Source: Hyphomicrobiales bacterium (GTDB lineage: Bacteria > Pseudomonadota > Alphaproteobacteria > Rhizobiales > Rhizobiaceae). From it: a DNA stretch of 39,867 nt. Location of the stretch: contig JAJFHU010000041.1 of assembly GCA_021775455.1 (NCBI GenBank), forward strand, positions 1 to 39,867, read 5' to 3'. How positions within the stretch are numbered: position 1 is the stretch's first letter; every line of letters starts with the position of its first letter. The position numbers and the translations under genes were made by a program. This document shows, one piece after another, positions 22,664-39,359 of the stretch. The notes under the pieces are model-generated. The model ran no database searches. It had not been told where the DNA came from and worked only from the letters and a program-made list of their open reading frames with translations.

Positions 22664-22724
22664 TGACAGCTCGATAATTGTGCTCTTAACAGATGTGTAT
22701 CTACGCACAGCGAAGGATACACAC

Positions 22725-22901: not shown

Positions 22902-22909
22902 CGCTGGTT

Positions 22910-23719: not shown

Positions 23720-24147
23720 GGGTAGGGGGGTATCCAGTCTTCATGTAATTGATTTCCATAGGACCGGCGGTGGTGTCAGGTAGAGATTTTTTTACCGTGA
23801 TATTTGTTTTTCTTGGTTAGCTACGCCAACAAATGGATCTTGTAGTGAGCAGAGGCTTTATCTTACTGAAAATATTACAAAAAATTTCGTATAGAATTAT
23901 TTGTTGAATTCTGGAGTTTATTTTTCCCGTTTGGTTAGAGGGAAGGGAATTTAAAAAAGGAGGGAATGCGGTCTTTCGCTGCGTGTGCAAAGGTAACTGG
24001 TGACTCAAGCAGAGCGGATATTAATTTACCGACCCACAATTTTTAATTGCGGCGTCGATACATCAATGCAAGCTGGTTCGGCTTCCAACTATGCCATGCG
24101 TGTCTTTAGTTCTGCTGGAAGGCGCAGCACGCCTTCCAGCACCAATT
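23720..24147. other. Intergenic region between island maintenance genes and AIPR unit, with terminator hairpin
   Basis: No gene is supported. The main structure is a perfect 12-bp stem at 24113-24124 / 24130-24141 (TGCTGGAAGGCG with CGCCTTCCAGCA, loop CAGCA), lying 6 bases after the stop of the minus-strand 101-aa gene. It is the likely terminator of that minus-strand unit although no T-run follows. The rest is AT-rich and featureless to the eye. Confidence 0.6.
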
Positions 24148-24453
24148 TTACCTAGCTTGTCGAAGCAATGATTTGGCTTCTTCAATAGCAGTGTTAGCTT
24201 GCTCAAGAGCCTGTATTGCGACCATCGCGTTGCGGCCGTTTGGATAGGGGCCAGGGGGAGGTAGCTTCGTTGGTGGTGCAGAACAAACAAATCCAAAAGT
24301 TCGCCCACTAGCAATTTCAGCTACTCTCCCGCCATTGACGCCAAACCAAGCAGCTACGTCATGTTGTCTATCACCTCGTGCCAACATTCCCTTTATAATT
24401 GCCGCATCCAACACTGAAAGGCGAACCCCACTGGTTTTTGCTCGACGTGTCAT
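24148..24453 (-). CDS. Small HTH-like protein coupled to the AIPR-like gene
   Basis: 101 residues from the ATG at 24453; the longer frame from 24564 lies inside the upstream gene and is less likely. The central part (SVLDAAIIKGMLARGDRQHD, VAAWFGVNGGRVAEIASGRTF) reads as a helix-turn-helix resembling the small 'resolvase-like HTH' proteins common in alphaproteobacteria, followed by a Pro-rich segment (PPTKLPPPGPYP) and a C-terminal helix. The start overlaps the stop of the upstream gene as TAATG, so translation is coupled. A regulator or partner of the AIPR-like protein is the natural guess. Confidence 0.65.
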   Translation of the reverse strand: MTRRAKTSGVRLSVLDAAIIKGMLARGDRQHDVAAWFGVNGGRVAEIASGRTFGFVCSAPPTKLPPPGPYPNGRNAMVAIQALEQANTAIEEAKSLLRQAR

Positions 24454-25904
24454 TACCGCACCTCCATCGGTTCTTGACGGCGCTCTTCGAACAAGGCGTT
24501 CCGAAACTCGCGGACACAAAACTCGTACGAATTTGGGTCTTTCGAGATCTTTTGCGGATCCCATTTGGCCATGTTCAAAACCAGTTGATATGAATCAGCA
24601 ATTCGATCCAAATACCGCTCAACAAAAGCAGCGGGATCTTCAACAGCCCAAGTGACGAGACCGTCTTTAATTGTCATCAGGCCTTTCAATCCATAGATCA
24701 GTGGGTAAATGAGGCCGATTGGGTAGTTGTCCTTGACCGGTTCTCGAAAAAAAGGTGTCGACGGTTGTACAGTCGTGTATCCTTGGACATCCTTACCCGC
24801 CGCCAAGGCATTCTTCCGTGTTTCAGGGTCATAGATTTTGACGATTGGGTTTGACGCAAAGCGACGTTTTCCGTTACCGTTGTATGCCTTTGGGAACTCC
24901 GCATAGATCTTATCATATAGCTTTGGGATGTCGGCGAGCACCTTGAATGCACTTTCAACACCCCTATGTTTTAACTCTCGCTGTGGTCCATGTTTCTGTA
25001 CGGTAACGTCATTGTTGCTCATAAGCTCTTCGAAACGTTTTGAGCATTCCCCCTTGTTTCTGTACGTATTCTGAGGCGTCACACTGAGATCCATGGGAAG
25101 ATCGTCAGCTTCATTCAATACGTTCAAAGGGATCCAGGAAAGTGACACCAAGTCCCGAACTTTGATCGGACGTTTTTCGTCATCGTCTTCCCAGCTGTTT
25201 GGCTTCCATTCAACACGAGCCGCAAACTCATCGGAAACACTGGCCTTTATCGCGTCATAAAAGCCTTGTTTATTTGACTTTGCTTCAAGAGGGAGCTGAG
25301 CGTTGTTGTTGCGCGCCTCACATACTTCTAGGAGCGGCATCAAGAATGCATCAAGGTGATTTTCGGACTCGCCGGACGGAACAAGTAATTCCAGTGGTAC
25401 GAGGAAGTCGAACAAATCTTTGACTCGCTCAATTTCCTCACGTCGTGCGTCCCACTCAAATTTCATTTCATCCCAAGACTTGATTTTCCTCCAGTCTGTG
25501 TCTTCCATGAACTCCTTCAGCACAAACAGGCCAATTGCGAGCATGTTGTGCCCGCCGTCTAGAATTCCTTCAATTGTGGGTTCGTTAAACACTAGGCGAA
25601 ACCTATTGCGTTGCAATGGTTCATAGTTCGCGGTTCCGACCAGAATCCCCTTCGATTTATATCGGAAGAGTGAGGATGATGTTGCCAACGTGGATAGTAT
25701 ATCCTCGACAACTGAGTTTCGTCGGGAGGAGCGAGGATTGGCCGCTAGGCCAGCATTGTCAAAAAGCGGAAAGAGGTTTTTCGCTTGGACGAACCCAATC
25801 AGTCTTTTGATGGGAGTATCGTTTTCAAACTCAGTAGCTTTGTCAGAAGGTTGGGTCGCAACATTTGCGAACCTAATTACGATATTATTTTTATTGTAGG
25901 TCAT
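24453..25904 (-). CDS. AIPR-like (abortive infection phage resistance) family protein
   Basis: 483 residues from the ATG at 25904, chosen for its GGAG ribosome-binding site 6 bases upstream; a GTG at 25985 and an ATG at 25916 are in frame. The N-terminal third has the AIPR layout: a segment around KNLFPLFDNAGLAANPRSS, then the 'short-term allowed' block FRYKSKGILVGTANYE, matching the family's NNGITI region, then IEGILDGGHNMLAI, matching the NGGQT region. The C-terminal part is unfamiliar. AIPR proteins protect by abortive infection through an unknown mechanism. The gene heads a two-gene minus-strand unit inside the island. Match is by remembered motif pattern, not alignment. Confidence 0.62.
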   Translation of the reverse strand: MTYNKNNIVIRFANVATQPSDKATEFENDTPIKRLIGFVQAKNLFPLFDNAGLAANPRSSRRNSVVEDILSTLATSSSLFRYKSKGILVGTANYEPLQRNRFRLVFNEPTIEGILDGGHNMLAIGLFVLKEFMEDTDWRKIKSWDEMKFEWDARREEIERVKDLFDFLVPLELLVPSGESENHLDAFLMPLLEVCEARNNNAQLPLEAKSNKQGFYDAIKASVSDEFAARVEWKPNSWEDDDEKRPIKVRDLVSLSWIPLNVLNEADDLPMDLSVTPQNTYRNKGECSKRFEELMSNNDVTVQKHGPQRELKHRGVESAFKVLADIPKLYDKIYAEFPKAYNGNGKRRFASNPIVKIYDPETRKNALAAGKDVQGYTTVQPSTPFFREPVKDNYPIGLIYPLIYGLKGLMTIKDGLVTWAVEDPAAFVERYLDRIADSYQLVLNMAKWDPQKISKDPNSYEFCVREFRNALFEERRQEPMEVR

Positions 25905-26040
25905 TGGGATCTCCATATTAACCGTTTCAGGTGATGGAGCTGATCCCAGAAATGCAAACGCCTTGAGCGATTGATATGAAGACACCCGGTTTTCACCAAG
26001 ATAGTCGATTCATTGCCTCCCATCCGGTTGACCTATTTCC

Positions 26041-26087
26041 AGAACCCGCTCCGGGTTCTTCACGTCCTTTATCCAAAGGACTTTTTT
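26041..26087 (+). terminator. Double hairpin terminator without an upstream plus-strand gene
   Basis: Two adjacent stem-loops: AGAACCC/GGGTTCT (26041-26047 with 26053-26059, loop GCTCC), then GTCCTTT/AAAGGAC (26064-26070 with 26075-26081, loop ATCC) followed by TTTTTT (26082-26087). The second is a textbook intrinsic terminator on the plus strand, yet no plus-strand gene ends before it, so it may end a small RNA or a relic transcript. Confidence 0.6.
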
Positions 26088-26518
26088 ACATAAGCACTAC
26101 ATGCCGATTTTTCAAGGGAGGATTCTGAAAATTTTAAATATATCGGCGGCAACTATACTATTTCCGTGGTCGCCAGAAATGTTGCGCCTTTCAGGAACGA
26201 CTGCTTTTGATGTCCTATCCAGTGCGCTGATTAATACGTTGTAAGTCCGCTATGGGCCGAGTAGGGAAAATGCGAATATGCCGAATCAATACGTCTCTTT
26301 TCTTATGTGGCGGTTAGTATCTTATATTCTGACATGATACCAATTTGCAGGCTTCTGTTTTGCCATAAGGGAAGGTAACAACGAGACAGTGCAACATGAC
26401 TCCTTTTAACCGTCACTTTCAGTGTTAGCCCATCAAGAAAATGCATATCGAACTAAATTTGAATTTCCATTATATGTTCTCTTTATGTTCGAAAAATTTT
26501 ATGATAAACTGGGAAATA

Positions 26519-26537
26519 TTGTGACAACCTGTCAAAA
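26519..26537 (+). promoter_or_regulatory. Operator-like inverted repeat before the methyltransferase gene
   Basis: TTGTGACA (26519-26526) and TGTCAAAA (26530-26537) form an inverted repeat with a 3-base centre and 7 of 8 pairs, ending 20 bases before the ATG. The methyltransferase has an N-terminal HTH, and many such fused enzymes repress their own gene, so this is a good candidate autoregulatory site. Confidence 0.45.
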
Positions 26538-26557
26538 ATTTACCCAGAGCGAGTTAT

Positions 26558-27814
26558 ATGAACCATCCCGTAACACAGAATGACTTTGCCCTTCTCCGGG
26601 AAAAAGCGGGGCTATCCATAGAAGACGCTGCTTCCATCTTGTGCCGGTCTTCACGAATGATACGGCGTTATGAAACTCGTGGCACGGGCGGGACTATTGC
26701 TCCTCAGTTAGTCATCGAAACGCTTCAGCGGTTTGTTATAGAGCGATGCCACGATGAGAATAACTACGAGGGTGCATTTAGGTTTGTTGATCTGTTTGCC
26801 GGTATCGGCGGACTCAGAATTCCATTCGAGGAAGACCTAGGCGGACAATGTGTATTTACTTCCGAATGGGATCGTTTCGCCCGTGATACTTATGCTGCCA
26901 ATTTTCCTGAAAGTAAGGATCATATCTTTGCGGGTGATATAAGGCCCTTTGCCGATATGCCGGAGCGCATACCTAAGCACGATGTTCTTCTAGCTGGATT
27001 TCCATGCCAGCCATTTTCCATAGCTGGGGTTTCAAAGAAAAACTCACTGGGTAAACCCCATGGGTTCATGTGTGACACACAAGGTACCCTATTTTATGAT
27101 ATTGCAAAGATTATTAGCTACCATCGTCCACCTGCATTTCTGCTTGAGAACGTCAAGAATCTTAAACGGCATGATGGTGGAAGGACCTTTGCAACGATCA
27201 TGCATGTTCTGGAAAACGAACTGAAGTACGAGGTTCACACAAGGGTTATTAACTCAGATTCCTGGGTGCCTCAAAAGCGAGAGCGGATTTTTATTGTAGG
27301 TTTCAGTAAACCCTCATCGTTCAATTTTGATGATATAGTTACACCGGCTAGTGCTGCCCCGACTTTGGGTGTTATCTTGGAAAACGATGTCTCAGAAAAA
27401 TATACCCTGACTGACAAACTTTGGAACTACCTCCAGAAATACAAGAAAAAGCATCAGAAAGCGGGGAATGGTTTCGGCTATTCGTTGTTCGGAAAGGATG
27501 ATGTCGCGAGAACACTTTCGGCGAGATATTACAAGGACGGTTCGGAAATCCTGATTGAGCAGAAAGGCAAAAGGCCTCGCCGTTTGATTCCGCGAGAATG
27601 TGCACGATTAATGGGTTTTGATAAGCTAGGAGAGTCAAAATTTGATATTCCAGTATCAGATACACAGGCATATCGCCAGTTTGGTAATGCCGTTGTTGTC
27701 CCGGTAGTTCGAGCGGTAGCCGATCTCATGAAACCACACTTGGAAGAAGCGATGGCGGCGCGCGACAACCTGCCACTTCAAAGGCAATTGCGGTTGGCGC
27801 CGCCACATGGTTGA
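26558..27814 (+). CDS. DNA (cytosine-5) methyltransferase with N-terminal HTH (EcoRII/Dcm type)
   Basis: The 418-residue C5-cytosine methyltransferase has an HTH (residues about 5-60, LLREKAGLSIEDAASILCRSS) fused in front. Catalytic motifs: I VDLFAGIGGLR (77-87), IV GFPCQPFS with catalytic Cys150, VI LLENVK (195-200), VIII QKRERIF (239-245), and X QFGNAVVVPV near the C-terminus. The variable target-recognition region lies about 255-345. It lies in an operon with Vsr and an EcoRII-type nuclease, so the likely target is CCWGG, methylating the inner C. The HTH suggests self-repression through the inverted repeat upstream. Confidence 0.93.
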   Translation: MNHPVTQNDFALLREKAGLSIEDAASILCRSSRMIRRYETRGTGGTIAPQLVIETLQRFVIERCHDENNYEGAFRFVDLFAGIGGLRIPFEEDLGGQCVFTSEWDRFARDTYAANFPESKDHIFAGDIRPFADMPERIPKHDVLLAGFPCQPFSIAGVSKKNSLGKPHGFMCDTQGTLFYDIAKIISYHRPPAFLLENVKNLKRHDGGRTFATIMHVLENELKYEVHTRVINSDSWVPQKRERIFIVGFSKPSSFNFDDIVTPASAAPTLGVILENDVSEKYTLTDKLWNYLQKYKKKHQKAGNGFGYSLFGKDDVARTLSARYYKDGSEILIEQKGKRPRRLIPRECARLMGFDKLGESKFDIPVSDTQAYRQFGNAVVVPVVRAVADLMKPHLEEAMAARDNLPLQRQLRLAPPHG

Positions 27815-28256
27815 TATTGTCTCAAATGAAGTCCGCAGCCGAATGATGAAAGGCATCAGGGGTAAGAAGACCAAGCTGGAACTCACCCTTGGAAGTGGAC
27901 TGCACAATCGAGGTATGCGGTATAGATTACATCGCAAGGATCTTCCTGGATCTCCTGATTTCGTTTTTTCAAAGTATCGTGCAGTGGTTCTTGCAGAGGG
28001 TTGTTTCTGGCACGGGCACGATTGTCACTTGTTTAAATGGCCTAGCTCACGTGAGGAGTTCTGGACGAAAAAGATAAAAGGTAATGTCAGGCGCGATGAA
28101 AGGAACTTGCAAAAGCTGAAGGAGAAAGGTTGGCGGATTTGTAGGGTTTGGGAATGTTCGCTCAAACGAAAACCGAAACACCATTCTGATTTAGTGTTTG
28201 ATCAATGTGTAAACTGGTTACGGAGTGATAGGCCGTGGCTCGAGATCGCCGGATAA
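27807..28256 (+). CDS. vsr: Very short patch repair endonuclease (Vsr)
   Basis: The 149-residue Vsr nicks DNA 5' of the T in T:G mismatches that arise when 5-methylcytosine deaminates at Dcm sites. Family pattern is complete: RSRMMKGIRGKKTKLE, the catalytic Asp51 in LPGSPDFVF, the zinc- and metal-site block EGCFWHGHDCHLFK (65-77), REEFWTKKIKGNVRRD and GWRICRVWECSLK. The start overlaps the methyltransferase end by 8 bases; its stop is shared with the next ATG (TAATG). It guards the genome against mutation from its partner methyltransferase. Confidence 0.95.
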   Translation: MVDIVSNEVRSRMMKGIRGKKTKLELTLGSGLHNRGMRYRLHRKDLPGSPDFVFSKYRAVVLAEGCFWHGHDCHLFKWPSSREEFWTKKIKGNVRRDERNLQKLKEKGWRICRVWECSLKRKPKHHSDLVFDQCVNWLRSDRPWLEIAG

Positions 28257-29515
28257 TGAAAAAAGGATATCTGTCTGAATATTTCTTTGGGGCTGGATCG
28301 AAAATTCTGACGCGGGTTGACGCGACCTCGAAATCCAATCAGCATGAAGTCGGCGACAAGGAAAGTGGTGAAGTTCTTAAACGTATCCTTGGGACTCAAG
28401 AGCGCAAGGCTGGAAACCGTTTTGTAGCGAAATACATTTGGTTGCTTGATGAGCAGGAATCAATATCCGAGGACGGCTTTCTATCTTGGTATGATACCCG
28501 CGCCAACCAACTACATCGTAGCGCCGAATGGCGACTTTACTATCAGAGTAACGCAATTACCGATTTGATGAACGAAGGTGACCGGCTGTTTGTCGCGAGG
28601 CGCCATAACGACACCGTACTCTTCATTGTGGCACCGGATGATAGTGCGATTGCCAATCAGTTACTCTGGCTATTCGGTATTGATGCTCAAAGCGGGTTTG
28701 ATTTTGATGCTCAAAATTTTGTTGGTGACGATGACACTTTTATCGATTTTGCCACTCGCTTCATCCTTGATGAAATAGGGATCGAATTCGAAGACCCCAA
28801 TGCAAACACGCTTGATACGATTATCGAACGCTACGGCTTCAAATTCCCAGCTACGAAAGATTTTTCTGATCTAGCACGGCTTACACTGCCGGATGTCGAT
28901 GCACGTAATGATCCGGATGAGGCGCTTGTTGCCTGGCTCGACCGTGAAGAGGCGATGTTCCGCCGACTTGAGAACCGAATTGTTGCGAGGGACATTGAAC
29001 GGGGTTGGATTGTTGATGGTACTGTAAATGTGGATGCCTTTGTCAAATACTCGTTGGGTGTTCAAAATCGGCGAAAGGCGCGAATGGGCCGCGCGTTCGA
29101 GAATCATCTTCAAGCTGTCTTCGATGCGCTTGAGCTAAGATATGACGCGCAAATCATCACGGAAAATGGTAAGAAACCAGATTTCATTTTCCCTGGTAGG
29201 ACGGAATACGAGGATTCTGACTTCCCTCCAAGATTGTTGACGATGCTTGCCGCAAAATCGACCTGTAAAGATAGATGGCCGCAAGTATTGCCAGAAGCGG
29301 GGCGTATCATCGTCAAGCATCTTATCACTCTCGAGCCGAGTATCTCTGAATCGCAAACGCATACCATGCGTAACGCAAATGTTCAGCTCATTGTTCCCAG
29401 CCGAATTCGCGGCAGCTACACAAATTCCCAGCAATCTTGGTTGTTGTCTCTTGGTGAATTCGTTGAACATGTTGCAGAACAACAATGGGCAATTGAAAAA
29501 ACCATTTTTAAATGA
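28256..29515 (+). CDS. Type II restriction endonuclease, EcoRII family
   Basis: About 419 residues from the ATG at 28256 (TAATG overlap with vsr); a GTG at 28235 would add 7 residues. The N-terminal half should be the EcoRII effector DNA-binding domain (B3-like); the C-terminal half is the EcoRII catalytic domain: RRKARMGRAFENHLQAV, the PDFIFPG motif with the PD-type Asp, and LTMLAAKSTCKDRWPQVLPEA with the catalytic Lys, then HLITLEPSISESQT. EcoRII cuts CCWGG and needs more than one site. With Dcm and Vsr this makes a complete R-M module. Confidence 0.9.
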   Translation: MKKGYLSEYFFGAGSKILTRVDATSKSNQHEVGDKESGEVLKRILGTQERKAGNRFVAKYIWLLDEQESISEDGFLSWYDTRANQLHRSAEWRLYYQSNAITDLMNEGDRLFVARRHNDTVLFIVAPDDSAIANQLLWLFGIDAQSGFDFDAQNFVGDDDTFIDFATRFILDEIGIEFEDPNANTLDTIIERYGFKFPATKDFSDLARLTLPDVDARNDPDEALVAWLDREEAMFRRLENRIVARDIERGWIVDGTVNVDAFVKYSLGVQNRRKARMGRAFENHLQAVFDALELRYDAQIITENGKKPDFIFPGRTEYEDSDFPPRLLTMLAAKSTCKDRWPQVLPEAGRIIVKHLITLEPSISESQTHTMRNANVQLIVPSRIRGSYTNSQQSWLLSLGEFVEHVAEQQWAIEKTIFK

Positions 29516-29626
29516 TTGCGAAATTTTCAACATTTGTTTGGGTTGTTTCTTGCGCGAATTCAGTGGCTTAATGCTGCGTTATGTGATCTCAGTACGCGCA
29601 TATATCAGAAATGTACACAATATATA

Positions 29627-29656
29627 TTGACAGTAACGGTACAAATCCTATATATA
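29627..29656 (+). promoter_or_regulatory. Sigma-70-like promoter of the GHKL operon
   Basis: TTGACA at 29627-29632 and TATATA at 29649-29654 (16-base spacer; the second TATATA register at 29651-29656 gives 18) form a strong-looking promoter about 42 bases before the first gene of the operon at 29698. It suggests that the GHKL module can be transcribed on its own and not only from the R-M genes. Confidence 0.6.
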
Positions 29657-29697
29657 CAGGAAATTACGACATTGAGAAGTAGATCTGAGAAGAATAA

Positions 29698-29922
29698 ATG
29701 CGAGATAAACGCCAAAAATTTGTGCAGTTGGCTGAAGCGCGAGTGAATCGCGCAATCAAGGACATTCGGCTTATCGGCAATCTTGCAAATCGGAATTCTT
29801 ATGAGTTTACGGATGAAGAAGTCAGAAAGATTTTTAGGGTTATTCAAAAGGAATTGGACGCCGTCAAATCTAGATTTACCGGAGATAGCGGCGGGAAAGA
29901 CAGCGAGTTTCGTCTAAGATAG
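29698..29922 (+). CDS. Small helical protein, first gene of the GHKL operon
   Basis: The 74-residue protein has a high content of Arg, Lys and Glu: AEARVNRAIKDIRLIGNLANR, then EFTDEEVRKIFRVIQKELDAVK, two amphipathic helices with a short disordered tail. Small proteins of this form accompany many defence ATPase operons, but no family name is recognised. It ends one base before the ATPase start (TAGGATG) and lies behind a clear promoter. It may be a regulator or a subunit of the ATPase. Confidence 0.65.
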   Translation: MRDKRQKFVQLAEARVNRAIKDIRLIGNLANRNSYEFTDEEVRKIFRVIQKELDAVKSRFTGDSGGKDSEFRLR

Positions 29923-29923
29923 G

Positions 29924-31780
29924 ATGAATATGGAAAATTGGAGATGGATTTGGCCCCGGGTCGGTGCGGTACCGATCACGCAAGGTACTGATAGCGAAAT
30001 GTTTGATAGGACTGACTATCCATATTCAGATACTTTCGTTCGCGAAGCTATACAGAATACTCTTGATGCAAGACTTGATCTAAGCAATCCAGCTAAAATC
30101 AAATTTCGGTTTCAAAGTGGAGACAAACAATCGTTGCATCCGTTCGTTAGTGGAGCAGTTGACCTTCGAAAGCAGGCCAACTTGTTTGTGCCTGACGAAT
30201 GGGACCAATGTAAAATTGATTGGATAACGATTGAGGATTTCAATACGAGAGGTCTAAGTGGTGATCTCACTGACCGTTTAGGTGATTTTTGGAACTACTG
30301 GCTGAATTTTGGACTATCAAACAAATCTGGTCGAGGTCGCGGCGGTCGCGGAATCGGGCGGGTGACTTTTCTCATAGCTTCCCGTCTCCAGACCGTGATT
30401 GGTCTGACGCGCCGAAAAGAGGACGGCTTAACTGCCGCCGCTGGAATGACCATTCTCAATGCTATGCGTACGCCAGAAGGATTCTGTGCAACACATGCTT
30501 ATTTGGCTGCTGAAGAAGATAACGAGAATTCAATATTTCTCTTGCACAAATCTGATGATTTTCACACTGATATGGCAAAAGCATTTGGTTTCGATGGTTA
30601 CCAAATCCCGCCTTACCACAGTGGTTTAGCCCTCGCGATTCCGTACCCTCATCCGGAACTGACGCCTCAGGGAATATTGGCATCGGCGATAGAGCATTTT
30701 GCTCCAGCCATAATTGGAAATACACTGACTGTTGAAGTTAATGACACCATTCTTGATGGCAAAAACATCTATTCAGTTGCCACGGAAGTGGAAGGCAACT
30801 TTAAGTCGGACTGGATCAGGCAGGATGCCCAACGATTCCTCAAACTTGTAACACTAGGCATTCGTGATAATGGTGAAATTTTATCCTTAGAAGATGTGAG
30901 TAAAGGCTTTTCTGATTACAAGGATTCAGAATTTGTATCGAATTTACAAAGTATCCTGGACGAAGAAAAGGCGGTTTCATTCAGTATTTCATTTCCACTA
31001 GTGCGCAATTCAAAGACACATAAAGTGAGCCTGCGAATTGTAGCTTCTCAAACTCCCGAAAATAAATTGCCCGTTGACAGATTATTCCGAGAAGGAATGA
31101 GCTTGCCAGATGTAAAGACGAAAAATCCAGGTGATATTGATCTGTTAATTTTTGTCGAAGATCTCGAACTTGCAACCTACCTAAACCTTTGCGAAGGCAA
31201 AGCACATTTGGATCTACTGGAGTCAAAGGAAATTCGAGGTAAATTGGAAGCCAAAGGCTATTGGCCGATTATTAGTGTGAAGCGATTTGTAAAGAGCCTG
31301 CCGTCCGAAATCAGAATGCTGCTAATTCCGGACATTACGGAACCAGAGTTGGATGTATTTGACGCATTTTTTGCAATCCCCGATATTGATTCCAAAGGAA
31401 AAAAACACCGTGGCGGCAAGCCAGAAGATCAACCGCCCCCCCCTGATCCTCCGCCACCGCCACGAATATCTCCATTTCGTGTCAGCACGCTTGAAGATGG
31501 ATTTCGGATCGAAGCTAACCCGGAGTTTGAACTCTGGCCGGTTAATATGTCTTTTGCAATAGCCTATGCGGATGGGTCCCGCAACCCATCGTGGAGCCCT
31601 TTGGATTTTAAATTTGATCAATTGGAAAACAGTGCTTCTGGGTGCGTACCTGTGTTCTCGAAAAACAAGTTAACCGCGCGAGATTGTACCGAAGAGTGCA
31701 GGATCGAAGTCACAGGATTTGATACAAGAAGAGAGCTTGATACTAAAATAAGGATCTGGAGAAATGCGTCGAACAATTAG
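29924..31780 (+). CDS. GHKL (MORC/Hsp90-like) ATPase
   Basis: The 618-residue protein has an N-terminal GHKL ATPase domain (about residues 30-260). The N-box is FVREAIQNTLDAR (Glu41, Asn45), the first glycine motif IEDFNTRGLSGDL (Asp105, Gly110, Gly113) and the lid GRGRGGRGIGR (136-146). A second region (about 270-490) resembles the S5/transducer part of such ATPases, then a poly-proline linker (PPPPDPPPPP, about 505-514) and a beta-rich C-terminal domain (about 518-618). MORC-type ATPases often sit next to R-M genes and are thought to loop or compact foreign DNA. The end overlaps the next gene by 17 bases. Exact family not fixed. Confidence 0.85.
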   Translation: MNMENWRWIWPRVGAVPITQGTDSEMFDRTDYPYSDTFVREAIQNTLDARLDLSNPAKIKFRFQSGDKQSLHPFVSGAVDLRKQANLFVPDEWDQCKIDWITIEDFNTRGLSGDLTDRLGDFWNYWLNFGLSNKSGRGRGGRGIGRVTFLIASRLQTVIGLTRRKEDGLTAAAGMTILNAMRTPEGFCATHAYLAAEEDNENSIFLLHKSDDFHTDMAKAFGFDGYQIPPYHSGLALAIPYPHPELTPQGILASAIEHFAPAIIGNTLTVEVNDTILDGKNIYSVATEVEGNFKSDWIRQDAQRFLKLVTLGIRDNGEILSLEDVSKGFSDYKDSEFVSNLQSILDEEKAVSFSISFPLVRNSKTHKVSLRIVASQTPENKLPVDRLFREGMSLPDVKTKNPGDIDLLIFVEDLELATYLNLCEGKAHLDLLESKEIRGKLEAKGYWPIISVKRFVKSLPSEIRMLLIPDITEPELDVFDAFFAIPDIDSKGKKHRGGKPEDQPPPPDPPPPPRISPFRVSTLEDGFRIEANPEFELWPVNMSFAIAYADGSRNPSWSPLDFKFDQLENSASGCVPVFSKNKLTARDCTEECRIEVTGFDTRRELDTKIRIWRNASNN

Positions 31781-32525
31781 ATTAACTGGTCGGAAACAAC
31801 TTCCGATAAGTTGCATCAATGTTCATGTTCGCGATGTCGGAGAAGGCAGAGTAGTCACGCTTGATATTGTAGATCATCAAAAATTCAGTGGTTTTCCAAA
31901 AGATGCACGTTTGACGCTTAGGCTTACCGAGAACAAGCAGATGGAATTGGTGGATTTTGGTACGATAGGTTCGCCAAAACTTATGACGGATTTGCAGAAT
32001 ACTGCGCTAGGTGATCCAAGTTGCCAATTGCGTGTAGCTTCCACTAATGCAGACCACCTTGGGCTGCTACTTGGTAGCACCAAGAATTGGCGTCTAAATT
32101 CAGACAGGCAAGCATCAGGTAACGTTCGGGGGATCTTACGTTTCCAACCAATGCCAATCGCACCACGCGCCTGGAAACTGGATATTCAGGAGAGCGCTCA
32201 CCCGGTTGTACAGATTGATGACAGGATTCCTGATCCTCGAAATTGGGTCAGAACGGATCCAGTATTCATAGCTGCTGTTCTTCCCTCTATACTGCAGCTC
32301 GTGTTTGAAGATATCCTCTCCAAACCATCTCCAGCAGACATCGAATGGATGAATGACTGGATCCGTTGGGCTGATTCGCTGATGCCCGGCTATCCACCAC
32401 CGACTGTTGCGGATGACTTTAACGAACGGAGGGACTGGATTGAGCGTATGGTTGACAGTTTTTGCCTACGTCACAATTTGTCTGATCGAATTATCGATGA
32501 TCTAGAGAGGGAGGTTGCAGCGTGA
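31764..32525 (+). CDS. Unrecognised protein, third gene of the GHKL operon
   Basis: Not recognised. The 253-residue soluble protein has a beta-rich N-terminal part (about 1-165: CINVHVRDVGEGRVVTLDIV, ARLTLRLTENKQMELVDFG) and a helical C-terminal part (about 170-253) with a Trp-rich segment (WMNDWIRWADSLMPGYPPPT). No catalytic motif stands out. Its start overlaps the ATPase by 17 bases and its stop overlaps the next start (GTGA), so it is translated in step with both and likely forms a complex with them. The function is unknown. Confidence 0.7.
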   Translation: MRRTIRLTGRKQLPISCINVHVRDVGEGRVVTLDIVDHQKFSGFPKDARLTLRLTENKQMELVDFGTIGSPKLMTDLQNTALGDPSCQLRVASTNADHLGLLLGSTKNWRLNSDRQASGNVRGILRFQPMPIAPRAWKLDIQESAHPVVQIDDRIPDPRNWVRTDPVFIAAVLPSILQLVFEDILSKPSPADIEWMNDWIRWADSLMPGYPPPTVADDFNERRDWIERMVDSFCLRHNLSDRIIDDLEREVAA

Positions 32526-33301
32526 CTAATTTTGATTGCCTTTGCGAGTTTACTGATGCTGGGATGGAATTATTCAAGCAAGCGTTTGATGGGCGGATTG
32601 ACGAGAATTCTATTGATTTATCGGACCGTTCGTTGGTCGCTGCAATTCCAGAGACAGAAAGTTTCAAAGTTAATGATTGGAATACTGCAAAGGAAATGGC
32701 GGAAGCAATAATCCAATCTGCCGGAACGGAATCAGTGGATAGTTTGTTAACACGCAAAGGGCTTTGGGCTTGGTTAGCATTTGTTCTTCGCGCTCAACTC
32801 TTTCCACGTCGTCGTGATAGCAAGCGAAAGTTGGGAGAAATACATCGCTGGTACCCCAGTGACTTGAATGACTACCAAAAGGGTCAGCGTCATCTTGTAA
32901 GGATGCCAGTACTTCTATTGTATTCCTTTAGCGATACTGCCGATCATTTGCTATGCGGCAAACCATCAGTACCCGGAGAGGTAAGGGAACAACTGACAAG
33001 CCAACAAGACATGTTCCATTCCACATTCCAAGCAGTAGCACGTGCGCTATATTACGATCCTGAAGAAGGTACATTACGGCGTGGTACCGCTGGAAAACTT
33101 GGTGGATCAGCACGACGACTTGCCCAGGTACGAAAGCAACTTGATGTCACATGGGATCTGTTAGCCCTTTCTCCCGAGCAATTATTAGAAAAATTACCGG
33201 AAGAATTTAATCGTTTTAGGGAGCAGTCCAATGTAGAAGATACTAATCTAGTCATCAGCGGTGACCGCAATGTATCACATGCATCCTCATTGGTGCATTG
33301 A
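32522..33301 (+). CDS. Unrecognised protein, fourth gene of the GHKL operon (DUF6339-like?)
   Basis: Starts with GTG preceded by GGAGG, 7 bases away, and overlaps the previous stop by 4 bases. The 259-residue protein is helical and soluble; the middle is the best-defined part: LWAWLAFVLRAQLFPRRRDS (about residues 81-100), then GQRHLVRMPVLLLYSFSD (about 121-138). This recalls the DUF6339 pattern as I remember it, but the match is tentative. No catalytic residues are apparent. It closes the operon; a 327-base gap follows. Confidence 0.65.
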   Translation: MTNFDCLCEFTDAGMELFKQAFDGRIDENSIDLSDRSLVAAIPETESFKVNDWNTAKEMAEAIIQSAGTESVDSLLTRKGLWAWLAFVLRAQLFPRRRDSKRKLGEIHRWYPSDLNDYQKGQRHLVRMPVLLLYSFSDTADHLLCGKPSVPGEVREQLTSQQDMFHSTFQAVARALYYDPEEGTLRRGTAGKLGGSARRLAQVRKQLDVTWDLLALSPEQLLEKLPEEFNRFREQSNVEDTNLVISGDRNVSHASSLVH

Positions 33302-33628
33302 GTGACTCTTGAAATGTTGGTGCAACTCGTATGTTCTAGCGTTACCACTGATAACTCGATCTGGTCGCTCAATTAGTGAAAAATTGCTTTAGAGGGATCA
33401 CTATGAAACGATCAATAATTATTGTTGATAAGGCTGCTTGTAGACAAAGACATTTTACCACCTCAACTAAACATATATACATCTCACAACGAACCACACT
33501 TGAACAAAAATCATCAATCTTGCGACCACACTAATTCATGATGTAATTGAGGAATTCTGCAATGATGATGTCATAAACCGCTCCGCGACGGGCACATTTA
33601 TTTCTGTTAAATTCTAGCTAATTCCGAA
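33302..33628. other. Intergenic region between the GHKL operon and the HAD gene
   Basis: No gene, repeat or terminator with a clear T-tract is seen. The sequence becomes steadily AT-richer towards 33629 and may contain the promoter of the HAD-GT-GNAT cluster. Confidence 0.5.
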
Positions 33629-34339
33629 ATGATGAATAAGATAATTGACAACAAAAAGGCTATCCAAGCGGTTGTATGCGACATCGGGGGGTTCCTGTTT
33701 CCGGATGTTTGGGAAACTATTTTTCTTTCTACAGACCGGCATGCGTGGTTTTCTGAGCTGCCGCCACGTTCAAAAATTGAAAGTGTAGGTAAGATAATTT
33801 GGGACAAATACTCACTCGATAACTCTCCAAAAAACGATAATGAGTTAGAAGTAGCAGAGAAAAAATTTTGGCAAAGTTTTGTTCGTGAATTGGAACTAAA
33901 TATCGATAAAAATATTTTAATTAAATTATCTAATAATATTATTGTTGAAGATAAAAAATCATTATCCTTTGTAAAAAAATGTTCTGATATTGGTATTAAA
34001 ATTTATATTGTGTCAAACAATACTAAGTTTCTATACAAAAAACAGTGGGGAATATTAAAAAATTACAAACTTTTTGACAAAAAAAATGCATTTCTTTCAT
34101 TTGAAATGGGTTGCACAAAAACAAATCCTCCAAATGAAATGTATCAAAAAATTATTGAGTCAATTCAAATAGCGCCCCGCCAAGTGCTTATTATTGATGA
34201 TAGATTAGAGAACATTCAAATGGCTAAAGCAAATGGGTTTCAAACGTTTCATTTTGAAGGGAGTCGTAACGATTATTGGCATCTGAGCGAATTGGTTGCC
34301 GAAAAACGGAGGGGAAGAAATGACCGCAAAAAAGGATGA
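33629..34339 (+). CDS. HAD-superfamily hydrolase
   Basis: The 236-residue HAD phosphatase-like protein has motif I VVCDIGGFLF with the nucleophile Asp (about residue 18) but Gly where many have the second Asp, as in DxGG subtypes; motif II IVSNNT (about 127-132); the motif III Lys in GCTKTNP (about 160-166); and motif IV LIIDDRLENIQMAKANGF (about 188-205). The helical cap lies between motifs I and II. Very AT-rich and Lys/Asn/Ile-rich compared with neighbours, so codon use is foreign even within the island. It overlaps the next gene. Substrate unknown. Confidence 0.82.
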   Translation: MMNKIIDNKKAIQAVVCDIGGFLFPDVWETIFLSTDRHAWFSELPPRSKIESVGKIIWDKYSLDNSPKNDNELEVAEKKFWQSFVRELELNIDKNILIKLSNNIIVEDKKSLSFVKKCSDIGIKIYIVSNNTKFLYKKQWGILKNYKLFDKKNAFLSFEMGCTKTNPPNEMYQKIIESIQIAPRQVLIIDDRLENIQMAKANGFQTFHFEGSRNDYWHLSELVAEKRRGRNDRKKG

Positions 34340-34871
34340 GCTGGAAGCTATTTATTTAGAATATCGGTCACTGAGAGAAGAAATAATTACCGCGATGCAC
34401 GCAAGAAATTCCATCCTTTCGTTTGGATTGGCAACGATTGGTGTGATGTTTTCCGCTATTGCAGCAATTTTTGTAAGTGGATCAAATACTATGTTTTCTG
34501 GATTGGTGCTTTTTATAATCGTTCCGCTGATCGTCGTCTTTATTCTGTTAATTTGGCTTGGTGAGTACCAAAGAATGCACAGAGCAGGAAAGCATATGAT
34601 ATCACTCGAGGAGCGAATTAATCTAATTCAGAAAAAAGAAATATTGACATGGGAAACAATGCTGAGGGACAGGAAAGCTCATATGGGATATCCATATGAT
34701 ACTACGATAGTATTGCTTGTTGCGATATTGTTTGCATCTTTTTGCATTGGGATAACTCTAATTGAGATAACCAATTCCACTTATCAAGTTCTTGCTTACA
34801 TCGCGGGTGCACTGTTTTCAGTAGTTGTCTATGTATCTGCTGTTACCAAGATGTCTGAATTGCGAAAATAA
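34320..34871 (+). CDS. Four-TM membrane protein of unknown function
   Basis: 183 residues from the ATG at 34320, which has an excellent ribosome-binding site (GGAGGGG); an in-frame ATG at 34296 is within the HAD gene. Two N-terminal membrane segments (about residues 28-52 and 58-82) and two C-terminal ones (about 128-150 and 155-177) flank a cytoplasmic helical hairpin with the conserved-looking ARNSILSFGLATIG and LGEYQRMHRAGKHMISLEERI. Not a named family I can defend; two-plus-two TM proteins of this shape occur as pore-forming effectors in several defence systems. It overlaps the HAD gene by 20 bases. Confidence 0.7.
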   Translation: MTAKKDELEAIYLEYRSLREEIITAMHARNSILSFGLATIGVMFSAIAAIFVSGSNTMFSGLVLFIIVPLIVVFILLIWLGEYQRMHRAGKHMISLEERINLIQKKEILTWETMLRDRKAHMGYPYDTTIVLLVAILFASFCIGITLIEITNSTYQVLAYIAGALFSVVVYVSAVTKMSELRK

Positions 34872-34886
34872 GACTTGGATGGCTGT

Positions 34887-35741
34887 GTGATATCTCCCAT
34901 ATTGTATTTGGCTTACAACAGGCCAGACTTAACTGAACGGACCTTTAATGTAGTTCGTACAGCAAGAGTACAACGTCTATTTGTCGCTGTTGATGGTCCA
35001 AATCCGAACACCGAAGATATTGAATCATGCGAAAAAGTCAGATCAATCGTAACGAATATCGATTGGGATTGTGAAGTTAAGTACTTGTTCAGACATCAAA
35101 ACCTTGGATGCAAGGTTGCGGTTGAAAGTGCATTGGATTGGTTCTTCTCAAATGTTGAAAAAGGCTTAGTTCTAGAGGATGACTGTCTAGCTGATCCAAG
35201 TTTTTTTGATTTTGCTACAGAGCTTTTGAATGTTTTGGAAGACTGGGAGGATGTGTCTATGATCTCTGGATTTAATTTCCGGGAACGTATGGGCATTGAT
35301 TATAGCTATCGATTTGGCAGAATTTTTCCGATTTGGGGCTGGGCAACGTGGCGTAAAAATTGGATGATGTACAATTCAAGCATGAACGATTGGGATCACT
35401 TTGTTCAGTCTGGAGTTATTAATTGTTACGGGAATGAAGCGGAAAGACAACTTATCATATTTGAGAAGGAATATGAAAATCCTGACGATCGAACCTGGGG
35501 AGTACAGTGGCGGTACCGCAATTTAGCCCTCAACAAAGTTTGTGCGATTCCAAATGTTTCCTTGATACAAAACATTGGGTTTGGCCACCGAAAAGCCGTT
35601 AGACAAAAAACTTTTCACCCTCTGATCACTAGAGATCCCAGTGCAATGAATGACATAAAGCACCCAACGCATCTTGAAATAGATTCAAAATCAGATGAAG
35701 ACGCGCTTAATTACTATTACTCAAACAAGCCAACTAAATAA
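34887..35741 (+). CDS. Glycosyltransferase, GT-A fold (HlpA-like)
   Basis: 284 residues from the GTG at 34887 or 288 from the TTG at 34875; no ATG is in frame near the start. The nucleotide-sugar binding GT-A fold starts with SPILYLAYNRPDLTERT, then FVAVDGPNPN, FRHQNLGC, and the DxD-type metal motif LVLEDDCLADPSFFDF (about residues 94-109), followed by IWGWATWRKNW. This matches a group of small glycosyltransferases that modify polysaccharides or proteins ('hemolytic protein HlpA-like'). Three bases after the membrane protein and two bases before the GNAT-HIT gene, so in one operon. Confidence 0.82.
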   Translation: MISPILYLAYNRPDLTERTFNVVRTARVQRLFVAVDGPNPNTEDIESCEKVRSIVTNIDWDCEVKYLFRHQNLGCKVAVESALDWFFSNVEKGLVLEDDCLADPSFFDFATELLNVLEDWEDVSMISGFNFRERMGIDYSYRFGRIFPIWGWATWRKNWMMYNSSMNDWDHFVQSGVINCYGNEAERQLIIFEKEYENPDDRTWGVQWRYRNLALNKVCAIPNVSLIQNIGFGHRKAVRQKTFHPLITRDPSAMNDIKHPTHLEIDSKSDEDALNYYYSNKPTK

Positions 35742-35743
35742 TA

Positions 35744-36745
35744 ATGACTCGTGGTTCAGAATCGATAAGACTAGTTCACAATCCCTCCGAAGAGATTCTT
35801 CACTTATGTGTTAGGTATCTTAATTTCAATATTGAGAATGGGAACTTCGATGAGTTGGTGAGAACTCGGCTGATTGAAAGCAGTGAAGTTCATTTATGGA
35901 AAGTTCGACAAGAATCGCATCAAGATTATCGAGTTGCGGCACTGTCACATAACGATGAAGTTGTTGGGCTAGGTTATCTCTCAAAGGGGGCAGGCCGAAC
36001 TTCATGTACAGCGAAAATTGGCTTTACCGTGGATCCTAAATTTCAGGGAATGGGCTTGGGTACAAAAATCTGCCAAGCGCTTACAAAGAAACGTTTTTCT
36101 TTGGGGATAAATCGTTTAGAGGCAAGACCTTTTGAAACCAACTGTAAAGCTGTTTCGATTCTGCGCAATTGTGGATTTGCCCTAGAGGGAATTTTACCAA
36201 GATATGCGACAAACGCCAGTGGTAAGTCTATTACTGCAATTCAAATGGCATTAGTAGAATTTGAAAATTACTATCCCACACCAAGCAATGTCTTGTCATG
36301 CCCATTTTGTTCTGAGAATCTAGATAGGCGAATTGTGGCATCATCATCATACTGCCACCTGATTTACCCGGAGAAAAAGATTGCAGAACATCATGTGCTG
36401 ATAGTTTCAAAAGATCATTACGCTAACGCGTTTGAAGCGCCTTTCCATGTTATGAAAGAACTACTCCTCTTTGGGCAAAAAGTTTCCACTGTACTCAATG
36501 CAAATTTAAAGTCAGAGGGAACCAATCTATTTTATCAGTCAGGATTAGCGGCGGGGCAAACAGTTGACCATTTGCATTTACACATTGTTCCGCGATTTGA
36601 TGGCGATATATCCGAACCTGGGGACTGGTTAAGTCCTGAATTTAAAAGAGTTGAGTATATTCCTTCTATCAAAGAAGTAAGAAAAACTCGATGGGAAATG
36701 ATCGAGTTAATAAAAAGGAACAATTTATTTCCTTATGTCACGTAA
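35744..36745 (+). CDS. GNAT acetyltransferase fused to a HIT-family domain
   Basis: The 333-residue two-domain protein has an N-terminal GNAT domain (about 25-165) with the acetyl-CoA loop VDPKFQGMGLGTKIC (about 96-110) and the RNCGFALEG motif, as in RimJ/RimL-type N-acetyltransferases. The C-terminal domain (about 185-325) is HIT: the zinc-like CPFC at its start (about 187-190) and the catalytic histidine triad DHLHLHIVPR (about 279-288). HIT enzymes hydrolyse or transfer nucleotidyl groups. The fusion is unusual. Starts 2 bases after the glycosyltransferase. Joint role unknown. Confidence 0.88.
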   Translation: MTRGSESIRLVHNPSEEILHLCVRYLNFNIENGNFDELVRTRLIESSEVHLWKVRQESHQDYRVAALSHNDEVVGLGYLSKGAGRTSCTAKIGFTVDPKFQGMGLGTKICQALTKKRFSLGINRLEARPFETNCKAVSILRNCGFALEGILPRYATNASGKSITAIQMALVEFENYYPTPSNVLSCPFCSENLDRRIVASSSYCHLIYPEKKIAEHHVLIVSKDHYANAFEAPFHVMKELLLFGQKVSTVLNANLKSEGTNLFYQSGLAAGQTVDHLHLHIVPRFDGDISEPGDWLSPEFKRVEYIPSIKEVRKTRWEMIELIKRNNLFPYVT

Positions 36746-36977
36746 TAAATTTCATGAGTTTGTAAGGATTTGTAAACAAGAAGTGTTAGTGATTTTTGAA
36801 TCTTCACATGTCCATCCATGATGGGAGTTCTCCAGAAATGTGAATGAAAATGTTCATTCCAATCAGTATGCGTAATAAAGATGGATGCAATCTACACATT
36901 CCTGATTTAAAAACATAATTACGTATTTTATATTTTGTTCACTTGGATTTGATTATTGTCAATTAATGAATAATAAC

Positions 36978-37910
36978 TCACTTACTTCGATAGGAATCAT
37001 GGATTTTCAACCGGGATACGTTTTCGAGTATCGTACGATATTGATTGTATGTGTCGTTCCTTCCATAAACACACTTGTACCACTCTAGCGTCCCTCTCAA
37101 GAGATCTATTTTCTGTTCAGCCCAATGCACATCCCTTGATGCTTTGAAGAATAATGATCGATATTTGCGTCTTTGAGGCCCTGGGATTTTTGGCTTGTCT
37201 CCATGTGTTAGTAGCCCAAGAGTAAGGCGAGGGCGCCTTATCGGATGATATTTGGTTTTTTCGACATTAATTTCAAAGCCAGCATTGTTTACAATATTGG
37301 ATACAATCTCCGACAACCGCGGGTAGTTAAAATTTTTGTCCTTGTAAAAAAATAAGTCATCACTGTATCGAAGATACTTGATGTCCCAAGATGCAGCCAA
37401 GCTCGAAAGTTGTTCATCAAGTCGCCCAACTAAAAGGTTCGACAACATTGGACTTGTAGGCGCGCCCTGAGCCAACCTATCATTCATTGTTGTAAGTTTC
37501 GATAATATGAAACAACATTTTGATTTAAAACCCACTGAATTTAGAAATCCGTGCACTCTTCGAGTTGAAATTGAAGGGAAAAAGTCTCGTATATCAAGTT
37601 TTAGGACTGCTTTTCCAGGACAGAATTCTCTAGCCGCTGTCAGAACAGAACGGCCTGCTACGTAAGAGTGTACGTTCTGACCGACCGGCATTTTAGTCAA
37701 AATTTTATTATTGATACTCCTTTGGACACCTTTGAGCTCGCTATTTGGTATATGTAAATCCCGCAATATTCGCGGATTAGAGCGCTTTGGGATCTGAATA
37801 TTTATGTAATAATTGTCTGCATTCTCGACTAGATAGAAAATATGCTGCGGGGCAAAACCTAAGAAATTAGATGTCGATACAAGGTCAACACATTGCCCCA
37901 CAGCATTCAT
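36978..37910 (-). CDS. Retron reverse transcriptase
   Basis: The 310-residue reverse transcriptase has VLKLDIRDFFPSIS (catalytic Asp106), LAQGAPTSPMLSNLL (147-161), the YSDD box (182-185) and NAGFEINVEKTKY, all typical of retron RTs; LTLGLLTHGDKPKIP followed by RRKYRSLFF is the retron thumb region that usually reads VTGL. The length, lack of a maturase domain and the upstream ncRNA exclude a group II intron. It primes msDNA synthesis from the ncRNA. Its ATG (37908-37910) lies inside the a2 arm of the ncRNA. Third part of an effector-ncRNA-RT operon. Confidence 0.93.
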   Translation of the reverse strand: MNAVGQCVDLVSTSNFLGFAPQHIFYLVENADNYYINIQIPKRSNPRILRDLHIPNSELKGVQRSINNKILTKMPVGQNVHSYVAGRSVLTAAREFCPGKAVLKLDIRDFFPSISTRRVHGFLNSVGFKSKCCFILSKLTTMNDRLAQGAPTSPMLSNLLVGRLDEQLSSLAASWDIKYLRYSDDLFFYKDKNFNYPRLSEIVSNIVNNAGFEINVEKTKYHPIRRPRLTLGLLTHGDKPKIPGPQRRKYRSLFFKASRDVHWAEQKIDLLRGTLEWYKCVYGRNDTYNQYRTILENVSRLKIHDSYRSK

Positions 37911-38055
37911 TCCTACTTCTTCCTCATTCGATGAAGATCAATTCGGCGAAAAGATAAATATGCTTTTCGACTGATTGATCGTCAGGCTTCTGCGTACTTC
38001 GCGTGCCCGCAACGATAACATTGCGTCTCCCTTTGCAGGGAGTTGCTAGGAATGA
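37907..38055 (-). ncRNA. Retron msr-msd non-coding RNA
   Basis: On the minus strand the 149 bases between effector and RT begin with TCATTCCTA (38055-38047) and end with its exact complement TAGGAATGA (37915-37907): the a1/a2 pairing. Directly after a1 comes AGC-like CCTAGC, the context of the branching G in retrons such as Eco1. Two msr hairpins follow (CTCCC/GGGAG, 38042-38027; CGCAA/TTGCG, 38025-38008). The msd is a long hairpin: outer stem GATCAAT/ATTGATC (37980-37974 with 37942-37936), inner stem CGAAAAG/CTTTTCG (37969-37963 with 37953-37947). Mapping the exact msr/msd border needs experiment. Confidence 0.85.
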
Positions 38056-38083
38056 CAAATTCTTGCTTTTGGTTTGAAATTTG

Positions 38084-38926
38084 TCAAGTAACTGCAAAAA
38101 GTTTGGCGCGGGCGGTGCTTATTGCGGTAGTACTAAACGGTTTTAATACTGGGTCATTGTATCCGTTAATTGTTCGGTATCTACCAGATCCATATTTTTC
38201 TATTTTCGTTTGCTGAAACAGATTATGGAGCGCCGCATTAAGTTGTTTTGGAGCCAGACCTGACATCAGTAGCAAATCAGCATAACTCGGCCGCTCTCCG
38301 ACTAGGATCGCAATAAGTGCAATTGCTTTGTTGTACTCCAATCTGATTGGTGAAATGTATTTGGAATAGTCACCCAGTTTCGGTCGATACCTCAACATCG
38401 TATTCAAAACGTAATCGAACCTCTTCATGTAATGAGCGTACTTGTAAAATGTTAATGGATGCAAAACTCTGTCGACAATATCTGATTTGTTGTCTTCGTT
38501 GAAATAAATAACTGAATTCGGGTTCATCTTGCTGATAAGGCTCAAAGGTCCCCTAGCTATATAACTCTCTGCACGATAAAACTTCTCAGATAACAGTACA
38601 ACTAGTCGTTCTCTTATCCCAGCCAACTGTGTAAACGTTCCAAGTTCGGCTATGGAACCCGGTGATTCCAAAATTAGAAGTGTAAAATCCACATCGTGCG
38701 CAAATCTGGCTTCCAATGTTTGCAAATCAGTACTTTGCTTCGTGTAACCAGGTAGATCTTCTATCTCTTCACCATAGACAATTTTTACATTTGGAACTTC
38801 TGACAAAGCATCTCTTGCAATTTTGCGAAGTCCCATTTTTTCGGACGAATATCCTGGTCCACATAGAAAAACCCGCGAGCTGACCCATTGAGCATCGGCT
38901 CTAAGAAGACTTGGTTTTATAATCAT
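38084..38926 (-). CDS. Retron effector: nucleoside deoxyribosyltransferase-like + winged HTH (Eco1 type)
   Basis: The 280-residue protein has an N-terminal nucleoside deoxyribosyltransferase-like domain (about 15-150): VFLCGPGYS, VKIVYGEEIEDL, and the signature LLILESPGSIAELGTF (Glu87, Glu94), followed by FYRAESYIARGPLSLI. A C-terminal winged-HTH domain (about 195-265) carries YADLLLMSGLAPKQLNAAL. Same order and motifs as the Ec86 (Eco1) effector, in which LFPESPGSFTELGAF is the matching block. In Eco1 the effector is held in a filament by RT-msDNA and released by phage. Upstream of ncRNA and RT on the same strand. Confidence 0.9.
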   Translation of the reverse strand: MIIKPSLLRADAQWVSSRVFLCGPGYSSEKMGLRKIARDALSEVPNVKIVYGEEIEDLPGYTKQSTDLQTLEARFAHDVDFTLLILESPGSIAELGTFTQLAGIRERLVVLLSEKFYRAESYIARGPLSLISKMNPNSVIYFNEDNKSDIVDRVLHPLTFYKYAHYMKRFDYVLNTMLRYRPKLGDYSKYISPIRLEYNKAIALIAILVGERPSYADLLLMSGLAPKQLNAALHNLFQQTKIEKYGSGRYRTINGYNDPVLKPFSTTAISTARAKLFAVT

Positions 38927-39345: not shown

Positions 39346-39359
39346 TGGTGCCCCCACAC
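39346..39359. repeat. attR: 14-bp core within the tRNA-Thr 3' end
   Basis: Identical to 20587-20600. It covers the CCA, the discriminator, the 3' acceptor strand and three bases of the adjoining T-stem of tRNA-Thr. The segment between the copies, with integrase at one end and tRNA at the other, is the island (18,759 bases from the start of one copy to the start of the other). Confidence 0.85.

Follow-up and report, generated by a model that had tools for sequence, protein, structure and literature searches.

The cassette and its locus

We analysed a candidate defence cassette of four genes on the forward strand of a 39,867-nucleotide stretch of Hyphomicrobiales DNA (the whole stretch is called the window). 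The first gene, an open reading frame (ORF) call, encodes a small protein of 74 amino acids (p74; 29698..29922). It is followed by A, a 618-amino-acid GHKL ATPase of apparent paraMORC2 type (29924..31780), recognised by its motifs and by a match to the PADLOC component PDC-M33A (2.8e-18). The last two ORFs are B (p253; 31764..32525), which matches no known family or fold, and C (p259; 32522..33301), which starts with GTG and occupies the position of a DUF6339 or PDC-M33C protein, homology to either being only suggestive. One base separates p74 from A, A and B overlap by 17 bases, and B and C overlap by 4. Immediately 5' on the same strand are genes for a Dcm-type C5 cytosine methylase (26558..27814; Pfam DNA_methylase, 7.4e-76), a Vsr mismatch endonuclease (27807..28256; Pfam, 8.4e-27), and an EcoRII-C restriction endonuclease (28235..29515; Pfam, 2.5e-60), with 182 bases between the EcoRII stop and the p74 start. 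The sequence-only reading had described four tightly coupled genes after a Dcm/Vsr/EcoRII module, and the ORF positions, gap, and overlaps were as claimed. This coupling is not a product of chance, as the A-B-C order is kept across close and distant relatives.

The same reading placed the cassette behind its own promoter. A promoter pattern scan detected nothing in front of p74, and promoter-like sites in 29400-33700 were fewer than in shuffled sequence (4, against a shuffle mean of 7.8). A TTGACA followed 16 bases on by TATATA is visible by eye 5' of p74 but fails the scan rule. In seven of the 11 close relatives (the ATPase matches from one scan of species-genome contigs), the cassette and the restriction-modification (R-M) genes are on different strands, so that it must be transcribed separately in these loci. 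A search for an operator common to the upstream regions of Dcm and p74 found none.

The ATPase retains the residues expected of its superfamily. E41 and N45 of the N-box, D105 and G110, and the lid RGGRGIGR (139-146) were invariant in nine aligned ATPases including that of the window, and the N-box E and N and three lid glycines were also invariant in a more diverse set of 11, again including the window's. Membership of the GHKL superfamily was thus established by motif, with the Asp box in a variant D-x-N-T-x-G form; the Pfam HATPase models gave no match to this protein. The N-box, Asp-box, and glycine lid had been correctly read from the letters, as had the poly-Pro linker, which we located at about residues 503-516 and found partly retained in relatives. 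An ExxxH motif (E424-H428 in the window) was invariant in 9/9 close and 11/11 diverse ATPases, and an arginine (R389 in the window) was invariant across the 11 diverse ones. Iyer, Abhiman & Aravind 2008 (PMC2292703) name a conserved ExxxH in the C-terminal portion of the S5 domain as the mark of paraMORC2, and by this signature A is probably a paraMORC2-type ATPase. The PDC-M33A match spanned residues 36-307 of 618 and was found for 9/9 members, and no other PADLOC model matched the ATPase. A Pfam scan detected no fused DUF4263 nuclease, which is a trait of Shedu paraMORC3, and the A profile had no credible match among sequences of solved structures.

Neither Pfam nor NCBIfam gave a credible match to any of the four proteins, and PADLOC matched only the ATPase. 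The predicted structure of B combines a beta-rich N-terminal part with a helical C-terminal part (pLDDT 82.9, pTM 0.51), and that of C is mostly helical (pLDDT 76.3, pTM 0.76). The profiles of both proteins had no credible match among sequences of solved structures. Foldseek searches returned nothing at E <= 0.001 for either model against the PDB or for the B model against viral proteins; weak Fn3-like PDB matches to B had query-normalised TM scores below 0.3 among the 50 matches listed. Neither model thus had a convincing structural match; the earlier reading had likewise been unable to name a family for these two proteins with confidence. No relatives of C were found in viral contigs.

We compared the same two proteins directly with the PADLOC candidate components. 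PDC-M33B and PDC-M33C matched none of 10 members each of window-type B and C at E up to 10, and DUF6339 (PF19866) matched none of 10 members of the p259 family at E up to 1, leaving a weak profile signal only. The hhalign probability for window pairs against PDC-M33B/C was at most 7.3% with larger profile sets and 14% for the best pair with smaller sets. Same-position pairs gave P values of 0.0048-0.081 with the larger sets, against 0.28-0.69 for mismatched pairs, and 0.0072 and 0.028 against 0.42 and 0.71 in other profile comparisons. The smaller sets gave values between 0.0019 and 0.49 for same-position pairs, and the mismatched comparison of window B with window C reached 0.036. The B sets of other branches were linked to each other no better (0.12-0.75, with one pair at 0.066). 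On these sequence comparisons, homology of the window's B and C to PDC-M33B and PDC-M33C is unproven. One DUF6339 protein had a weak match to JetB/MukE (0.012), which was discarded as probable noise.

Conservation of the trio and its place among described systems

The 11 close relatives of A share 44-63% identity with it. In all 10 loci that run through the trio (window included, of 12 with the window), A, B, and C occur in the same order. The contig of L011 ends within the ATPase, the ATPase match of L012 stops at residue 160, and A is broken into two frames in L010. The C profile was positive in 5/385 class genomes, one of them (L022) as a fragment only. L022 is the exception among the relatives, its fragment of a p259-like C lying within a 589-amino-acid frame (7458-9227, reverse strand). 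That frame adjoins what looks by eye like a Dam-like methylase gene, and A and B were not seen there.

More distant trios were reached through the PDC-M33A model, which was found in 11/398 phylum genomes, that of the window included. In all 11, the ATPase is followed in the same order by two genes of about 240-310 amino acids (the ATPase frame is short in L041). In L035, L036, and L037, B is PDC-M33B (2e-88, 2.7e-40, and 2.1e-38, respectively) and C is PDC-M33C (9e-70, 1.3e-27, and 8.5e-37). The C protein matched Pfam DUF6339 in L035 (3.2e-46) and L042 (1.8e-5); the L040 and L041 proteins scored below the cut-off. The neighbourhood survey thus confirmed that these genes travel together with a patchy distribution beside 5-methylcytosine R-M genes. 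The cassette is real, conserved, and mobile. With the window A as query, nothing was found in plasmids or phages at E 1e-5; more distant A genes, reached via p74, do occur on plasmids. On one Arthrobacter plasmid (L088, 8967-11084), a DUF6339-bearing cassette is followed by a gene annotated as a Shedu immune nuclease.

The trio evolves independently of its R-M neighbours. Among seven loci that carry Dcm-type methylases, A, B, and C have pairwise identities that rise and fall together (Spearman 0.93, 0.88, and 0.87), whereas their correlations with the identities of the methylase or restriction endonuclease were only 0.02-0.33; these values rest on 21 or 15 non-independent pairs. Because A, B, and C diverge in step and the R-M genes do not, we regard the trio as a unit that changes R-M partners. 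The arrangement of these partners differs as well: the R-M genes precede the cassette in divergent orientation in L002-L006 and L012, follow it in L007-L009, and precede it on its own strand in L010 and the window. A guard or abortive module that shuts the cell down when it detects that the R-M system has failed or been inhibited, with no direct action on foreign DNA, might be expected to accompany several R-M kinds and to evolve apart from them, as this cassette does. We nevertheless rate such a role as unlikely, since some loci described below leave no restriction enzyme to guard and A, B, and C showed no toxin-like domain.

The cassette had been put forward as undescribed, which was too strong, because the ATPase carries the paraMORC2 mark (PMC2292703) and matches PDC-M33A, and related A-B-C trios occur with Z1/DUF4420 genes (PMC9523054). 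B and C of the window, on the other hand, match no Pfam, NCBIfam, or PADLOC model. The ATPase type and the trio layout are already on record as candidates. What is new is the divergent branch with unrecognised B and C, evidence that the trio is independent of its R-M genes, the loci that lack a restriction endonuclease, and the p74 family. The terms PDC-M33 and DUF6339 were named in none of the open-licence papers searched.

The window shares GHKL motifs, ExxxH, and Dcm/Vsr/restriction endonuclease neighbours with paraMORC2 (Iyer, Abhiman & Aravind 2008, PMC2292703). The accessible text of that account, figures aside, does not describe the B and C partner genes or the small upstream gene, and calls paraMORC2 mainly cyanobacterial and Gram-positive. 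The PADLOC candidate PDC-M33 has a homologous ATPase, the same gene order, similar sizes, and the same methylase and Vsr company, and differs in that p253 and p259 match no PDC-M33B or PDC-M33C model and are linked to them weakly by profile comparison. The putative type I Z1/DUF4420/methylase system of Miller et al. 2022 (PMC9523054) has Z1 and DUF4420 core genes that also occur in L042 and L043, whereas the window has EcoRII in place of Z1/DUF4420. We infer that its three additional genes are A-B-C and that its "DUF4220" is DUF4420. Shedu type I-D (VcSduA, paraMORC3; PMC12137116) also uses a GHKL ATPase, there in anti-phage defence, and its ATPase and nuclease mutants lost activity; VcSduA carries a fused DUF4263 nuclease, unlike the window's ATPase. 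Z1 and DUF4420 had no match near the window cassette. MzaABCDE, credited to Gao et al. 2020, is reportedly a multi-gene defence system with a MutL-like ATPase. The window differs from it in lacking Z1/DUF4420 matches near the cassette and in an ATPase that PADLOC assigned solely to PDC-M33A. MzaABCDE is named in PMC9523054.

Methylase company and the proposed role of the cassette

We surveyed the flanks (up to 10 kb, shorter at some loci) of 30 cassette loci found via A, PDC-M33A, C, or p74, and never via Vsr or the methylase. This table and the 37-locus table used for p74 leave out L003 (a near copy of L002), L022 (the C fragment), and L079 (a copy of L076), and three copy-like plasmid records (H4, H9, H13) were also left out. 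A C5 methylase homologue was found in the flanks of 26/30 loci, Vsr in 23/30, and either in 27/30. Neither was found at three loci: L011, whose sequence is cut off on one side, L036, and L083, which does carry an annotated dcm at the margin of the sequence covered. Vsr was found in 68/372 class genomes, mostly once. With one copy in a genome of a few megabases, we estimate that Vsr would be a chance neighbour within 10 kb at well under 1% of loci. The restriction genes vary, and include EcoRII-like (the window and others), AlwI (L084), MutH/Sau3AI (L083), and Z1 with DUF4420 (L042, L043) types.

This company could also fit a MutL-like repair helper, which would assist Vsr at T:G mismatches arising from 5-methylcytosine deamination or help repair R-M self-damage, with no anti-phage role. 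Vsr is present at all three loci lacking a restriction enzyme as well as at most others, the ATPase is of MutL/MORC type, and PMC2292703 describes MutL as a partner of Vsr in very short patch repair. Four of the 30 loci (L007, L037, L039, L085), however, have a C5 methylase match and no Vsr in their flanks, some of which are short. The cassette is also rare (C in 5/385 class genomes) where Vsr is common, and it occurs with Z1/DUF4420 genes too. We consider a repair role improbable.

In three loci the restriction enzyme is missing. L038, L064, and L066 are insertions, with third-position GC below that of the flanking genes, and contain only a methylase, Vsr, and A-B-C, joined by p74 in L064 and L066. 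L038 has no other ORF of at least 60 amino acids between its flanking genes, and L066 has, besides the cassette and R-M genes, two short ORFs of 75 and 88 amino acids. L064, whose right boundary is a 408-amino-acid gene of housekeeping look (by eye; 11096-12322), has a single further ORF above 100 amino acids (119), antiparallel to the end of A. With no unassigned ORF of adequate size, these loci have no room for a restriction enzyme gene. By its B (1.6e-24) and C (4.9e-29), L038 is of the window type, and L064 and L066 resemble the PDC-M33 type, with A closest to that of L036. If the presence of a methylase means that there is a threat to be protected from, A-B-C is the evident candidate for that threat at such loci, and this combination of methylase, Vsr, and trio supports a methylation-gated effector.

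We therefore tentatively propose, with a confidence somewhat short of an even chance, that the A-B-C trio, in many cases together with p74, serves restriction-type systems based on 5-methylcytosine as a mobile effector cassette. The evidence points to action of the unit itself on foreign DNA that lacks the mark. A would dimerise upon ATP binding and close on DNA as a clamp, as MutL and MORC proteins do, with B and C supplying contacts to DNA or partners and p74 docking via its conserved tail as a small dedicated subunit or regulator. Self DNA would be marked by the resident methylase, and the complex would engage incoming unmarked DNA and either block it or allow a nearby nuclease to cut it. 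In loci with EcoRII, such as that of the window, the cassette may be a second effector behind the same mark. A complex guided by methylation to act on foreign DNA had been suggested from the sequence alone; the three loci without a restriction enzyme strengthen that idea, which is still an inference.

Several observations weigh against this proposal. L036 has neither a C5 methylase nor a Vsr match in 7.4-8.7 kb on each side, and L039, the locus of the closest relative of the window's A, has just a distant methylase match 6.5 kb off. The genome of the window also carries a Dcm/Vsr pair that no cassette accompanies, which shows that a methylase of this kind can do without one; this second pair (L106, 2324-4069, reverse strand) comprises a Dcm of 61% identity, Vsr, and a 441-amino-acid neighbour. 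In L064, A seems to change frame near its end, and that copy may be dead. Pfam and structure-sequence searches of A, B, and C for a nuclease or DNA-binding signature found none, and no phage data or experiments on this cassette were found in the open-licence papers searched.

A trio without a nuclease signature would also suit silencing, in which the complex entraps and compacts unmethylated DNA like eukaryotic MORC and stops its expression with no need of a nuclease. C. elegans MORC-1 is said to entrap DNA topologically (PMC8277788). Nuclease genes (Vsr and various restriction endonucleases) are, however, usually adjacent to the cassette, and its tie to eukaryotic MORCs is at the level of GHKL type only, which leaves silencing, to our minds, a decidedly poor prospect.

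Extending the effector proposal further, p74-A-B-C could constitute a new R-M type, in which an ATP-driven complex of MORC/MutL-like type takes the place of the restriction enzyme and reads 5-methylcytosine as the self mark, and p74 founds a family of small dedicated subunits for several different defence GHKL ATPase families. We hold this fuller version to be doubtful. MORC and paraMORC ATPases have been linked to R-M genes since 2008. The compact loci without a restriction enzyme make their role there directly testable with five or six genes. They could show an ancestral role of an ATPase type that silences transposons in eukaryotes, namely reading DNA methylation to act on foreign DNA.

The p74 family and the surrounding island

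The cassette had been read as a set of four genes. The A-B-C trio is indeed constant, but p74 is a separate module that is undetected or decayed in 4 of the 12 close loci and is also found beside other GHKL ATPases. Eight of these loci have an intact copy; frame changes have broken it in L002 and L003 (near copies), and no copy was found in L007 and L010. Residues F8, R15, N31, Y35, and F71 are invariant in 28 aligned members, most of which end in an F-x-L tail. We found no credible match to p74 in Pfam, PADLOC, or NCBIfam, nor by profile among sequences of solved structures; weak Cas11-type matches were dropped as probable noise. The family was present in 16/385 class genomes, 9/383 phylum genomes (three shared with the 16), and 15/72,556 plasmid records, including those of Bacillota, Actinomycetota, and Deinococcota, and two marginal matches (E 3e-3) were found in phages.

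A GHKL-like gene lies downstream of p74 on the same strand within 3.2 kb at 31/37 sites and upstream at 0/37, in a count whose reference set was drawn partly from the same sites, in which several genes are broken, and in which L074 has just 135 bases upstream. The first class of partner is paraMORC2, and p74 also precedes the PDC-M33-type trio of L036. A second family of about 830 amino acids has an invariant N-box, DxGEGQ, and glycine lid; HATPase_c_3 matched it under the curated cut-off in L074 (2.6e-4) and L069 (0.025), and had no match in L067, L070, L071, L073, and L077. The same model matched a family of about 620 amino acids under the cut-off in L075 (1.3e-3) and one of 558 amino acids above it in L076 (2.9e-12). 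The six sites without a counted GHKL partner are L072 (GmrSD gene), L078, L081 (an 802-amino-acid protein with GHKL-like motifs by eye only), L090 (insertion sequence insertion), L091, and L092.

In the p74 tree, members group according to the class of their partner, with 12 changes against a shuffled mean of 20.2 and 0/200 shuffles as low. The tree was built on 74 columns without L080, and its L069 entry is a 12-residue misparse whose placement is meaningless. On the simplest reading, each GHKL family would have its own matching p74 as a small subunit or regulator. The family is also a small searchable marker that points to such GHKL genes. One genome (G360) has four p74 sites (L008, L070, L071, L080), three of them with the 830-amino-acid GHKL family; both p74 and its partner look broken in L080. 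On two plasmids (L087, 6019-11291; L089, 5986-12213), p74 and a 620-amino-acid GHKL gene lie near genes annotated as an ATP-binding protein and a UvrD-type helicase, a group that may be a separate defence module.

In the window, a 14-bp direct repeat occurs at 20587 and at 39346, the latter at the 3' end of a tRNA-Thr gene, and a phage-type integrase gene (20743-21936) adjoins the 20587 copy. Judging from the repeat, tRNA-Thr, and integrase, it is probable that a single genomic island of 18.8 kb (20587..39359) contains the R-M genes, the cassette, and a retron-like pair. The pair (36978-38926, reverse strand) encodes a reverse transcriptase (RVT_1, 1.7e-18) and an upstream 280-amino-acid protein without a Pfam match, presumably something akin to a retron with its effector. 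The N-terminal helix-turn-helix match of the Dcm protein is weak (Pfam HTH_31, 0.0011, under the cut-off). A 510-amino-acid protein encoded by the R-M genes' neighbour (24453-25985, reverse strand) has no Pfam match and looks AIPR-like by eye only. Directly downstream of the cassette (33629-36745) are genes for a HAD hydrolase, a small membrane protein, a possible glycosyltransferase (by eye), and a GNAT-HIT fusion.

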